33,559 bases of DNA. Source: Burkholderiales bacterium. Its GTDB lineage: Bacteria > Pseudomonadota > Gammaproteobacteria > Burkholderiales > Burkholderiaceae_C. Under the pieces are notes generated by a model. The model ran no database searches. It had not been told where the DNA came from and worked only from the letters and a program-made list of their open reading frames with translations. The position numbers and the translations under genes were made by a program. The stretch is from NCBI GenBank assembly GCA_947377275.1, contig CANCFV010000025.1, positions 1-33,559 on the forward strand. Direction: 5' to 3'. Positions within the stretch are counted from its first letter, which is position 1. Every line of letters starts with the position of its first letter. Positions 10,193 through 18,313 of this stretch are shown one piece after another.

Positions 10193-10217
10193 CCGCTGGC
10201 GATCAGATCGCCAGCGG
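10193..10217. terminator. Perfect 11-bp hairpin overlapping the priA stop codon
   Basis: CCGCTGGCGAT (10193-10203) and ATCGCCAGCGG (10207-10217) are perfectly complementary around a 3-nt CAG. The priA stop (complement of 10203-10205) lies in the loop, so one arm encodes the last PriA residues. It sits between convergent genes and could end or protect both transcripts, but lacks a T-run on either side. Confidence 0.45.
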
Positions 10218-12356
10218 GTCCACATCGACCGCCCAACGGATCAAACCGTTGCGGCGGTTTTTTTGCGCCAGCGCCAGCCAGATGGGCTGCGCCGCCACCA
10301 ACAGGCGTTGCAAGGCGGCGCGTTGGCTGGCCTCGATCATGAGCTGAGCGCGCTCCACATTGGCCACGCGCTGCACCGGCGTGGGCACCGGCGGGTACAA
10401 GCTGACCAGCCCGGTGGCGTCGGCCAGGTGCTGCACGGCTTGCGCGGCTTCGAGTAAGAAGGCTTGTGCGGCTTCTTGCGTTTTGCCCTCGGCGCGCAGC
10501 ATGGCGAGGCTGGCGTACGGCGGCAGACCGGCCATCGCGCGCTCTTTGAGCTGCTGCGCGGCAAAGTCAGCGTAGTCGTAGCGGCGCAGCGCGTCGTAGA
10601 GCGGGTGAACAGGGTGGTGGGTCTGCACCCACATCTCGCTGCCCGCCGCCACGCCGGCATCGCGACCGGCCCGGCCTGCGGCCTGCAGCAGCAGCGCAAA
10701 CTGCCGCTCGGCCGCGCGGAAGTCGCTGGCGAACAAGGCCGCGTCCGGGTTGACGGCAGCCACCAAAGTGATGCGCCGGAAGTCGTGTCCCTTGGCCACC
10801 ATTTGCGTGCCCACCAGCACATCGACCTCACCCGCATGCACGCTGGCCAGTTGCGCCTCCAGCGCGCCTTTGTGCTTGGTGACGTCGGCATCGATGCGGC
10901 CCACGCGGGCGCCGGGCAAGGCCTCGGCCAGTTGCTCTTCCAGGCGCTCGGTGCCCCGACCCACCGATGAAATGTCGGTGTTGCCGCAGTCGGGGCAGGC
11001 GCGCGGCACGCGCTCTGACAGGCCGCAGTGGTGACAACGCAAAGTGCGGTCGACTTTGTGGAATACCCGCCAGGCGCTGCAATGCGGGCAGCCGCTCTTC
11101 CAGCCACAGTCGCTGCAATGCAGCACGGGCGCATAGCCACGACGGTTGAGCAGCACCAGGCTTTGCTCGCCGCGCTCGACGCGCTGGGTGATGGCCTGCA
11201 ACAGTTCGCGCGCCAAGGGCGGCGGCTCCTGGCCGTGGGCCCCACGCGGTGCCCGCGACAGGTCAACCACCTTGACCTGCGGCATGGCCCCGTCGCCCAC
11301 GCGCGCTGGCATGTCCAGGCGCACGTAGCGGCCCACGCCGCCCTCGCTGACGGGCAAGGCGTTGTACCAGCTCTCCAAGCTGGGCGTGGCCGAGCCCAGG
11401 ATCACAGGCACCTTTTCCAGGCGCGCGCGGTACACGGCCAGGTCGCGCGCCGAGTAGCGGGCGCCGTCTTGCTGCTTGTAGCTGGGGTCGTGTTCTTCGT
11501 CGACCACGATCAGGCCCAGACGCGGCAAGGGCGTGAACACCGACAAGCGTGTGCCCAGCACCACGTCGGCATGCCCACCTTGCGCCATGAGCCAGTTGCG
11601 CAGGCGCTGTGCGGGCGTCAAACCGCTGTGCAGCGACACGATCCGGCGGCCCGCGAAGCGCTCGGCCACGCGGGCCTCCAACTGCGGTGTCAGGTTGATC
11701 TCAGGCACCATCATCAGCACCTGCTGACCCGCGTCCATGGCACGCTGGGCCTGGCGCAGGTAGACCTCGGTCTTGCCGCTGCCGGTGCTGCCCCACAGCA
11801 AGAAGGGCTTGTCGCATCCTTGCTGGCTGTCGGCCATGGCGGCGATCTGCGCCAAGGCCTGGCTTTGTTGTTCGGTCAGCTCGGGCAAGCGAGGCGGCTC
11901 GGCGTCGAGCGCGGCGCCTTCGTCGGTGCTGCGCGCGTCGCCACCGAGCGTCTTGTCGCGGCGCTTGATGCGACGCGCCCACTGCACCGCGTCAAGCTGG
12001 CGCAACTCAGGCGGCAACACCATCAAGGCCATCTCGCCCAAGCTGCGCTGGTAATAGCTGGCGGCGAACTGCACCAGTTGGCGCCACGCTGCCGACAGCG
12101 GTGGCAAGCCATCGAGCACCTCGGTCACGGCCTTGAGCTGGCTGGCATCAAAGGCCTGTGCCTCGTCCCCCACGGCTTCTTCACTGCCGCGCCACACCAC
12201 CCCCGTGACCACGCGCTTGCCCAAAGGCACGCGCACCAAATCGCCAGCCACCAAGGGCCGATCGCACAGGTAGTCCAGTGGGCCCCACAAGCCACTGTGC
12301 TGGGGCGCATCGACCACCACACCCACACGGTGCAGGGCCTGAGCGGCGTCGAACAT
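10203..12356 (-). CDS. priA: Primosomal replication restart helicase PriA
   Basis: This 717-aa protein has the size and layout of PriA, the 3'-to-5' DNA helicase that reloads replication machinery at stalled forks. The N-terminal DNA-binding part contains VVVDAP...LDYLCDR, VRVPLGKRVVTGVVW and FAASYYQRSLGEMALMVLPPELR. The helicase core has Walker A GSTGSGKTEVY, MVPEINLTPQL, the DEEH box VVDEEHDPSYKQQ and GSATPSLES. The zinc-binding insert has eight cysteines, beginning CSDCGWKSGCPHC and continuing CHHCG and CPDCG. Motif VI reads QAAGRAGRD. The start at 12356 is supported by AAAGGAGA 10 bp upstream; the in-frame extension to 12665 runs through the DnaA-box region and is rejected. A non-conserved ~35-residue linker precedes the helicase core. 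DnaA boxes 89 bp upstream could link its expression to DnaA. Confidence 0.96.
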   Translation of the reverse strand: MFDAAQALHRVGVVVDAPQHSGLWGPLDYLCDRPLVAGDLVRVPLGKRVVTGVVWRGSEEAVGDEAQAFDASQLKAVTEVLDGLPPLSAAWRQLVQFAASYYQRSLGEMALMVLPPELRQLDAVQWARRIKRRDKTLGGDARSTDEGAALDAEPPRLPELTEQQSQALAQIAAMADSQQGCDKPFLLWGSTGSGKTEVYLRQAQRAMDAGQQVLMMVPEINLTPQLEARVAERFAGRRIVSLHSGLTPAQRLRNWLMAQGGHADVVLGTRLSVFTPLPRLGLIVVDEEHDPSYKQQDGARYSARDLAVYRARLEKVPVILGSATPSLESWYNALPVSEGGVGRYVRLDMPARVGDGAMPQVKVVDLSRAPRGAHGQEPPPLARELLQAITQRVERGEQSLVLLNRRGYAPVLHCSDCGWKSGCPHCSAWRVFHKVDRTLRCHHCGLSERVPRACPDCGNTDISSVGRGTERLEEQLAEALPGARVGRIDADVTKHKGALEAQLASVHAGEVDVLVGTQMVAKGHDFRRITLVAAVNPDAALFASDFRAAERQFALLLQAAGRAGRDAGVAAGSEMWVQTHHPVHPLYDALRRYDYADFAAQQLKERAMAGLPPYASLAMLRAEGKTQEAAQAFLLEAAQAVQHLADATGLVSLYPPVPTPVQRVANVERAQLMIEASQRAALQRLLVAAQPIWLALAQKNRRNGLIRWAVDVDPLAI

Positions 12357-12444
12357 GAAAACGTGTCTCCTTTTTTCTGACAAGGTGCCCAAAATGCGGC
12401 GCAGGCGCCCGATTGTGCTAGGCAGAACCCTTATCCCCCGGGGC

Positions 12445-12453
12445 TGTGGATAA
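12445..12453 (-). promoter_or_regulatory. Consensus DnaA box (module A)
   Basis: TGTGGATAA, i.e. TTATCCACA on the minus strand, a perfect match to the high-affinity DnaA box. On the minus strand it is preceded by TTTCCCACA in a tandem arrangement 12 bp apart. A partial mirror, TTATCC, lies at 12431-12436. Confidence 0.8.
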
Positions 12454-12551
12454 CTTTGTGGGAAAGCTTTGCAAACGCGCGCTAACTGCTTGTCAGCACT
12501 CAGGATGCGACAGATTGCCACAAGATGAGGCACTCGCTCACGCTCTATATG

Positions 12552-12564
12552 AATCAACAACTTA
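12552..12564 (+). promoter_or_regulatory. IHF-binding consensus (module A)
   Basis: AATCAACAACTTA matches the IHF consensus WATCAANNNNTTR at every defined position. It lies between the two DnaA boxes of the module. Confidence 0.65.
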
Positions 12565-12634
12565 GCGCTTTTTGGCGGGCGTATCACCTTTGCAAGCACG
12601 GCGCCCCAACGCAGTGCGCCATGGGTCCGGATTG

Positions 12635-12643
12635 TGGGGATAA
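12635..12643 (-). promoter_or_regulatory. Near-consensus DnaA box (module A, second)
   Basis: TGGGGATAA is TTATCCCCA on the minus strand, one mismatch from TTATCCACA, exactly 190 bp after the consensus box. Confidence 0.55.
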
Positions 12644-12865
12644 GTGCGTTGCGCTCGTTCGGCAACGAGGGTTTCCCCTAGTTGCTCATTGTCTGACACG
12701 GCTTGTCAGCCAACCGTGAACTGTTTCACGAAAACCGTTGGATTGTTTCACACGGGTGCATGGGTCGGGTCAACGCACGAGCACTTGCCGCAACCTCTCA
12801 AGGTGCCTGCGCACAAAGCTGCGCTAAGTGCTTGATTTTGCGTCCTCCACAAGCTGTGCTGTGCC

Positions 12866-12874
12866 TGTGGATAA
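12866..12874 (-). promoter_or_regulatory. Consensus DnaA box (module B)
   Basis: TGTGGATAA is TTATCCACA on the minus strand. The flanking ACTTTGTGGGAAA is identical to copy A. Confidence 0.8.
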
Positions 12875-12972
12875 CTTTGTGGGAAACCTATGCACAGGCG
12901 ACTGGTCAGCATCCGATTTGGGGATTTCCCTTGTTCTGCCCCAAGATGCAGCACATCGAAAAAGTTCATATG

Positions 12973-12985
12973 AATCAAACACTTG
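12973..12985 (+). promoter_or_regulatory. IHF-binding consensus (module B)
   Basis: AATCAAACACTTG matches WATCAANNNNTTR at every defined position, at the same offset from the DnaA box as in copy A, although its variable four bases differ. Confidence 0.65.
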
Positions 12986-13055
12986 CCACACAAACGCTGG
13001 GCGGGAGAGGCAGGGGGCACCGTCTCTGTTCAAGGGCACGCCGCTCGCCCTTTTT

Positions 13056-13064
13056 TGGGGATAA
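13056..13064 (-). promoter_or_regulatory. Near-consensus DnaA box (module B, second)
   Basis: TGGGGATAA, one mismatch from the DnaA consensus on the minus strand, exactly 190 bp after the module B consensus box. Confidence 0.55.
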
Positions 13065-13311
13065 GTCTGAGGCGTTATCATAAAAATAGGCGTGGATCGC
13101 ACAGAGCGGTGCCGAGAATATGTGATAAGCCGCAACGCCCGGTACAGCGCCAAACCACGGTCAGCACACCAGAACCCCCGCGAAACGCACAGGGGGCTGG
13201 CAAACACCCGTTTGAAGCGGGTATGCTTGGGCCTGCGCCCAGGGCAGGTCGCCTCTTGACGTGTGAATGGGTGCGCTTTTCACATAACCCATCATTTTCT
13301 GAGAGACATCC

Positions 13312-13521
13312 ATGAGCTTCTCGATCGAATCCAAACTCGGCGACCTGCTGGACAACGACACCACCAAGGCCATCTTGGAAAAGCACCTGCCCGGCATCTC
13401 GACCCACCCCCAAATCGCCATGGGCAAGGGCTTCGCCCTGTCGATGGTGGCCAAGTTCTCCGGTGGCCTGATCACCGACGACCTGCTGGCCAAGGTGAAC
13501 ACCGACCTGGCTGCGCTGTGA
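13312..13521 (+). CDS. Small conserved-looking 69-aa protein of unknown function
   Basis: A compact 69-residue protein, MSFSIESKLGDLLDNDTTKA at the start, then a KHLPG motif, a HPQIAMGKG segment and a closing ITDDLLAKVNTDL. The pattern LGDLLD-x-AxL-KHLPG-PQI-x-G-ITDD-L resembles a short helical module that I recall as a C-terminal appendage in some bacterial esterases and glycoside hydrolases; here it stands alone. No signal peptide or membrane segment is visible. GC-rich third positions, a GAGAG ribosome-binding-like site and a textbook terminator 50 bp downstream support a real gene. An upstream TTGACG (13256-13261) could be part of its promoter, but the -10 is unclear. Its neighbours give no function. 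Confidence 0.75.
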   Translation: MSFSIESKLGDLLDNDTTKAILEKHLPGISTHPQIAMGKGFALSMVAKFSGGLITDDLLAKVNTDLAAL

Positions 13522-17700: not shown

Positions 17701-18120
17701 TCACTTCTTCTTGGCAGCGGCCTTCTTGGCGGCGGGCTTGGCAGCAGGCTTTGCTGCTGGCTTGGCGGCCTTCTTGTCTGCCTTTTTGTCAGCTGGCTTA
17801 GCGACAGGCTTGGCGGCCTTGGCAGCGGCCTTCTTGGCGGCGGCCTTGGGGTCCACGGCGGCCTTGAAGGTGGCGCCTGGGGTGAACTTGGGCAGCTTGG
17901 CGGCAGCGATCTTGATCTTGTCGCCGGTGCTGGGGTTCACGCCGTTGCGGGCAGCGCGTGCGTGCAGCTTGAACGAACCAAAGCCGGGGATGACCAAGCC
18001 GTCGCCCTTTTTCACCGTCGACACGACGGTGTCAAGCAAGGTGTCGAGGATGCGGCCAGCTTCGGCCTTGGTCAGGGAATGCTTGTCAGCCAGATGCTGG
18101 ATCAGTTCGGTCTTGTTCAT
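17701..18120 (-). CDS. HU-family DNA-binding protein with histone-H1-like Lys/Ala tail
   Basis: This 139-aa protein has an HU domain at residues 1-90: MNKTELIQHLADKHSLTKAE, the arm strand VIPGFGSFKLHARAARNGVNPSTG and IKIAAAKLPKFTPG. A tail at 91-139 is made almost only of Lys, Ala and Pro in KAAAKKAAAK and KPAAKPAAK repeats, like eukaryotic linker-histone tails. Such two-part HU proteins are known from Burkholderiales and some other proteobacteria, and act in nucleoid compaction. The start at 18120 is the natural HU start; the frame continues upstream without similarity. The tail codons form a low-complexity repetitive DNA stretch prone to length variation. It is a separate transcript from proQ, judging by the hairpins between them. 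Confidence 0.93.
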   Translation of the reverse strand: MNKTELIQHLADKHSLTKAEAGRILDTLLDTVVSTVKKGDGLVIPGFGSFKLHARAARNGVNPSTGDKIKIAAAKLPKFTPGATFKAAVDPKAAAKKAAAKAAKPVAKPADKKADKKAAKPAAKPAAKPAAKKAAAKKK

Positions 18121-18313
18121 GAGGCGATGGTTGTTGGGTTGCACCCGCAAACGTCGGGCAGGGCCATTGTGCAGTAACTGCCGCCGTTTTTGCCAGCCCT
18201 GAAAGCCACCAAATGCTTGCATCGTGCGTGTTCATGGGGGCTCTGAGGCATTGGCGCATCGTTTGAGGTGGGTGACCCAATGCGGGCAGACCCTGATCAA
18301 GGCTTGCGCCAAC

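Follow-up and report, generated by a model that had tools for sequence, protein, structure and literature searches.

The window, the whole 33,559-nucleotide stretch of DNA that was analysed, contains a gene-free intergenic region upstream of priA in which two modules with DnaA boxes and predicted IHF sites lie 421 bp apart. The features are as follows (offsets with a plus sign are counted from the start of box II).

10203..12356, minus strand: priA, 717 aa, start codon separated from copy 1 box I by 74 bp
12357..13311: gene-free intergenic region housing both modules, 955 bp
12431..12439, plus strand: copy 1 DnaA box I, TTATCCCCC, in the opposite orientation to box II and ending 5 bp before it
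12445..12453, minus strand: copy 1 DnaA box II, TGTGGATAA, a perfect box
12457..12465, minus strand: copy 1 DnaA box III, TGTGGGAAA, weak, 3 bp past box II
12515..12532: copy 1 TTGCC...GGCA block, at +70, its TGCC starting at 12516
12552..12564, plus strand: copy 1 IHF consensus site (predicted), AATCAACAACTTA, at +107
12635..12643, minus strand: copy 1 distal DnaA box, TGGGGATAA, at +190
12852..12860: copy 2, place of box I, AGCTGTGCT, 2/9 matches to TTATCCACA, box I absent
12866..12874, minus strand: copy 2 DnaA box II, TGTGGATAA, a perfect box
12878..12886, minus strand: copy 2 DnaA box III, TGTGGGAAA, weak, 3 bp past box II
12937..12953: copy 2 TGCC...AGCA block, at +71
12973..12985, plus strand: copy 2 IHF consensus site (predicted), AATCAAACACTTG, at +107
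13056..13064, minus strand: copy 2 distal DnaA box, TGGGGATAA, at +190

Opposite priA, the gap is bounded by a 69-aa ORF (13312-13521, plus strand) that matches no Pfam family and is 86-96% identical in 23 Aquabacterium-like loci. A 173-aa HU/IHF-family protein, extended at both ends, is encoded 5 kb from the element (17701-18222, minus strand). No RNA families or tRNAs were found in the window.

Within 12357-13311, the sequences CTGTGGATAACTTTGTGGGAAA, TGCC-x-CAAGATG, ATATGAATCAA and TGGGGATAAGT recur at an offset of 421. This diagonal holds 27 shared 7-mers, compared with no more than 11 on any diagonal in 2000 dinucleotide-shuffled versions, and with block 1 excluded 83 of 210 positions are still identical between the modules (shuffle mean 53.5, maximum 75, with 0/2000 reaching 83). 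The IHF block AATCAANNNNTTR at 12552 and 12973 has zero mismatches to WATCAANNNNTTR in both copies, and the distal box TGGGGATAA at 12635 and 13056 differs by one mismatch from TGTGGATAA, the perfect box at 12445 and 12866. On these points (two modules in a gene-free stretch, a perfect IHF consensus in each, and a perfect and a one-mismatch DnaA box per module) the first-pass annotation was right. The four blocks it described are also real, but it overlooked the inverted box I of copy 1 (TTATCCCCC, 7/9 matches to TTATCCACA) and the weak box III of both copies. Copy 1 is made up of a core of three boxes in the arrangement I-5-II-3-III (5-bp and 3-bp spacers), the TTGCC...GGCA block, the IHF site and the distal DnaA box, all at nearly fixed spacings; copy 2 retains every one of these parts except box I. 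The CAAGATG block, described as conserved, is indeed shared by the two copies, but in relatives it is the flanks TTGCC and GGCA that are kept while the middle varies. Fis was considered as a candidate binder of this block, which contains no perfect Fis match. Neither module contains a perfect Fis consensus, only one-mismatch matches, and the one perfect match lies outside the modules, at 13116.

Searching for close relatives of PriA yielded 61 named loci, 57 of which carry at least one module upstream of priA, with two in 29 of these 57 (exact pattern). The arrangement is thus conserved in the upstream regions of priA in relatives, where the first-pass annotation had proposed that it be sought, and the lack of conservation that it had named as a refuting result was not seen. 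The loci with no module were L060, L063, L095 and L089, of which the last is not judgeable because its contig begins inside priA. Copy number at priA varies naturally from one to three: the exact pattern occurs twice in 21 of the 23 Aquabacterium-like loci and once in the other 2, and L014 stacks three, reaching far upstream. Mean linker identity (26 + 23 sequences) is 68% among first copies and 56% among second copies, compared with 50% for first versus second, indicating that the tandem duplication is older than these species. The IHF site, at +107 in both window copies, lies at +105 to +109 in relatives. Across the family, the combined box and IHF pattern is present in 326 of 399 genomes, with no reversed control pattern among the matches listed, and it is present in 90 of the 369 genomes of the class sample.

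The module is also found away from priA. An additional module in the window's own genome sits at C120:6709, with exbB on one side and xseA on the other, and both of these genes flank every one of the 19 modules assigned to xseA (L033 and L115 being from the same genome). Among 30 loci taken from the class genomes matched by model R1 (see below), PriA was the commonest neighbour found, adjoining 10 of the 29 non-own loci. No constant neighbour other than priA was seen in the wider class among the 20 flanking ORFs of 11 loci scanned, out of 40 ORFs at 20 loci; these neighbours vary.

For the position of the modules in the chromosome we used 14 genomes with a large or single contig to locate dnaA, and neighbours were assigned by tblastn. 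With dnaA as the proxy for oriC, the priA module lies 3.4-12.2% of the chromosome (contig) from dnaA in 13/13 genomes checked, and the xseA module 35.3-47.1% away in 8/8. In G007, another module lies 34.9% from dnaA, with none of priA, xseA and exbB adjoining. An E. coli-like dif pattern was looked for as a terminus marker and found in 0/14 genomes, so that "far from origin" here means distance from dnaA.

DnaA recharging via DARS has been worked out in E. coli. DARS1 and DARS2 are described as having three DnaA boxes in one common arrangement with box I reversed (PMC5742627, PMC8682772), and the DARS1 core read from E. coli DNA is TTATCCACT, 5 bp, TGTGGATAA, 3 bp, TGTGTATTA. We looked at the core in relatives, using modules collected by the pattern of box II and IHF site only (171 found, of which 159 were distinct with enough flank and were used) and scoring an inverted box, out of 8, at each gap of 0-15 bp before box II. 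The 5-bp gap alone stands out: the mean at this gap is 5.56/8 in the 85 modules nearest priA, 4.44/8 in 34 further copies at priA, 5.28/8 in 18 xseA modules and 5.50/8 in 22 modules elsewhere, and the highest mean at any other gap is 3.68/8, for sequences that are related rather than independent events and include some loci repeating one genome.

A sequence-only model, R1, was built from 51 family modules, including window copy 1 and the C120 module, with zero E. coli sequence. R1 matches 106 of 115 class genomes at E <= 0.01 (the own genome and one family member included), with exactly two matches in 57 of the 106, one in 27 and three to five in 22, and it matches 92 of the 120 genomes of a phylum sample, many of them outside the class. 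R1 thereby yields candidate sites in most gammaproteobacterial families sampled. The negatives, which include the listed families f190 (4 genomes), f203 (5), f200 (2) and f197 (2) as well as 8 further genomes outside the listing, would speak for the specificity of R1. One genome of f191, a family of another class, stood out: G796 has as many as nine R1 matches, compared with the usual one or two. In the window's own genome, a fourth DARS-type core lacking the IHF part (C17:27285-27385, 35.6 bits) lies near a cold-shock-type ORF.

Collectively, these data suggest that the region is probably a tandem DARS-type, that is DnaA-reactivating, element. By its core of three DnaA boxes, with box I opposed and 5-bp and 3-bp spacing, copy 1 qualifies as a DARS. 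As looked for in a DARS, the element is intergenic and away from oriC (the 955-bp gap, 3.4-12.2% from dnaA as proxy), and as looked for in a DARS2-type element, an IHF site stands beside the core at a set spacing, here the predicted WATCAANNNNTTR match, which both copies have at +107. With 2/9 matches at the place of box I, the second copy in this genome would not by itself be a DARS and may act as a helper or DnaA-binding site. Several observations count against a DARS-type reading: box I of copy 1 has only 7/9 matches, box III is weak, the modules lack a perfect Fis consensus, R1 also gives a score to the E. coli datA region (with box I absent from the match), and box I is missing in 7 of the 21 second copies of the genus-level set of near relatives (kept with at least 6/9 matches in the other 14; the window's copy 2 is counted among the 21).

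The proteins expected for such an element are encoded in the window's own genome: DnaA, Hda (202.0 bits, cut-off 194.8) and IHF-alpha (121.8 bits, cut-off 120.25), together with an 80-aa ORF that is the best Fis-type HTH_8 match, as expected of Fis, and is a candidate only. Given that Hda is encoded, ADP-DnaA would be made and would have to be recharged. ADP-DnaA may assemble on boxes I-III and lose its ADP there, the molecules on boxes I and II facing each other head to head in the manner described for the E. coli system. IHF would bend the DNA and carry the distal box with its DnaA to the core, making the reaction switchable, and the apo-DnaA set free could bind ATP and initiate at an origin elsewhere, probably near dnaA. 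With one site near dnaA at priA and another far away at xseA, the cell may receive DARS doses that differ by replication stage.

A DnaA-inactivating site like datA would have the opposite effect: boxes around an IHF site would form a loop in which DnaA hydrolyses ATP, so that DnaA is switched off rather than on. E. coli datA consists of DnaA boxes 2, 3 and 7 around one IHF site and stimulates ATP hydrolysis. Each module here similarly has DnaA boxes flanking a consensus IHF site at near-fixed spacing, and in the excerpted literature datA depends on boxes 2 and 3, the IHF site and their spacing (PMC4585315, PMC10380432); the place at priA, 3-12% from dnaA, likewise resembles that of datA, given in excerpt as ~10% from oriC (PMC4585315). 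However, what marks a DARS is the inverted core with its 5-bp gap and box III, and the sole inverted pair found in datA is spaced by 3 bp and lacks a box III. Within the 20.5 kb of E. coli examined, R1 scores the datA region 12.1 bits with box I absent from the match, and the module is found again far from dnaA, at xseA. The first-pass annotation's reading as a datA/DARS-like control site is thus well supported; of the two, DARS is the better fit, given the exact I-5-II-3-III core, and we regard a datA-like function as improbable.

A DnaA/IHF-controlled priA promoter, or a plain DnaA titration site, in either case with no nucleotide exchange, is less likely still. The priA start codon is no more than 300 bp from copy 1, and no gene was found next to the module more often in the class sample than priA, in line with such a role, but the same module occurs at exbB/xseA and beside unrelated genes, and up to three copies are stacked far upstream (L014). 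This weakens the purely regulatory form of the priA control region that had been suggested. Titration alone, moreover, needs neither a 5-bp inverted core nor an IHF site at a fixed distance.

That the locus is a secondary or true replication origin is hardly credible, even with DnaA boxes and IHF sites in an intergenic region poorer in G+C than the DNA around it and a window GC skew that changes sign near 13.5 kb, as this change is local, the module is found again at xseA, a long way from dnaA, and GC skew and distance from dnaA led us to reject the priA site. The window's genome is in 221 contigs (86.9% complete, 6.2% contamination), and the skew check that had been proposed for a true oriC was run in G159 and G129 instead. 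In G159, which belongs to the same genus as the window, the 400-kb cumulative skew curve bottoms out at 2.706 Mb, with dnaA at 2.59 Mb on one side and the priA modules at 2.86 Mb, ~270 kb from dnaA, on the other; the minimum sits in a broad basin starting near dnaA, and at the priA modules the curve is well above it and still rising. G129 has a weak and noisy skew, with a negative value in the sample containing priA and the main sign change around dnaA. This makes it unlikely that the priA site serves as the replication origin. Separately, the dnaA-dnaN spacer of the own genome (L004, G000:C10) has four one-mismatch DnaA boxes of the TTGTCCACA type and is a candidate oriC, with a perfect DnaA box just outside the 5´ end of dnaA.

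Conservation of DARS as such is not new, as reviews already mention it: DARS-similar sequences are said to occur in many proteobacteria (PMC10380432) and are placed in beta- or gamma-species proximal to E. coli (PMC5742627). DARS itself is already known, and the priA-linked tandem form appears to be new; in the portions of the literature searched, which for the comparison also included PMC12371093 and PMC4948915 in excerpt, we found no description of a DARS at priA or xseA, or of any in Burkholderiales. A module of near-fixed spacing that varies naturally in copy number and loses box I offers ready-made comparisons of the role of each part, and the retention of the priA site at the same place in relatives suggests how these bacteria time chromosome copying.

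Of the E. coli elements, DARS1, in the bioD-uvrB intergenic region, has an I-5-II-3-III core identical in arrangement to that of copy 1 and, within the 20.5 kb of E. coli sequence examined, is matched by R1 with 16.1 bits. It also has TTG at +70, as in copy 1, and TGGGGATAA downstream, at +209 there compared with +190 here. Unlike the modules at priA, it has a single core and other gene neighbours, and no IHF consensus was found in the DARS1 stretch.

The rppH-mutH intergenic region, which contains DARS2, holds two core-like arrangements 316 bp apart. Excerpts of PMC4245941 describe DARS2 as having two IHF sites 3 bp apart and essential Fis sites FBS2-3; the paired IHF sites fit L164:1729-1741 and 1745-1757, which points to L164:1636 as the likely known DARS2 core, and L164:1952 was dropped for that role. 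This second core-like arrangement of E. coli K-12 (L164:1949-2082) reads TTATCCCAG-5-TGTGGATAA-3-GGTGTAAGA with an IHF-like site at +105, and R1 scores it above the putative known core (20.0 vs 14.3 bits). With the core so placed, DARS2 shares the core spacing of copy 1 and has its IHF sites on the box III side. These would lie at +79 and +95 compared with +107 here, a difference that counts against the DARS-type reading; the modules lack a perfect Fis consensus, in contrast to the essential FBS2-3 of the excerpted account (PMC4245941), and DARS2 is not located at priA. We call the element a variant because its IHF spacing and Fis sites differ from those of DARS2 and because its copies stack at priA.

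On the E. coli map, as excerpted from PMC4585315, datA lies ~10%, DARS2 ~21% and DARS1 ~33% from oriC. We tentatively raise the possibility that DARS are ancestral and near-universal in gamma- (including beta-) proteobacterial chromosomes. The Burkholderiaceae might then have one origin-near site at priA, where tandem copies can arise, and a second, distant site at xseA, the dose ratio of the two reporting replication progress, with E. coli DARS1 and DARS2 as diverged members and the DARS2 region keeping a second core.
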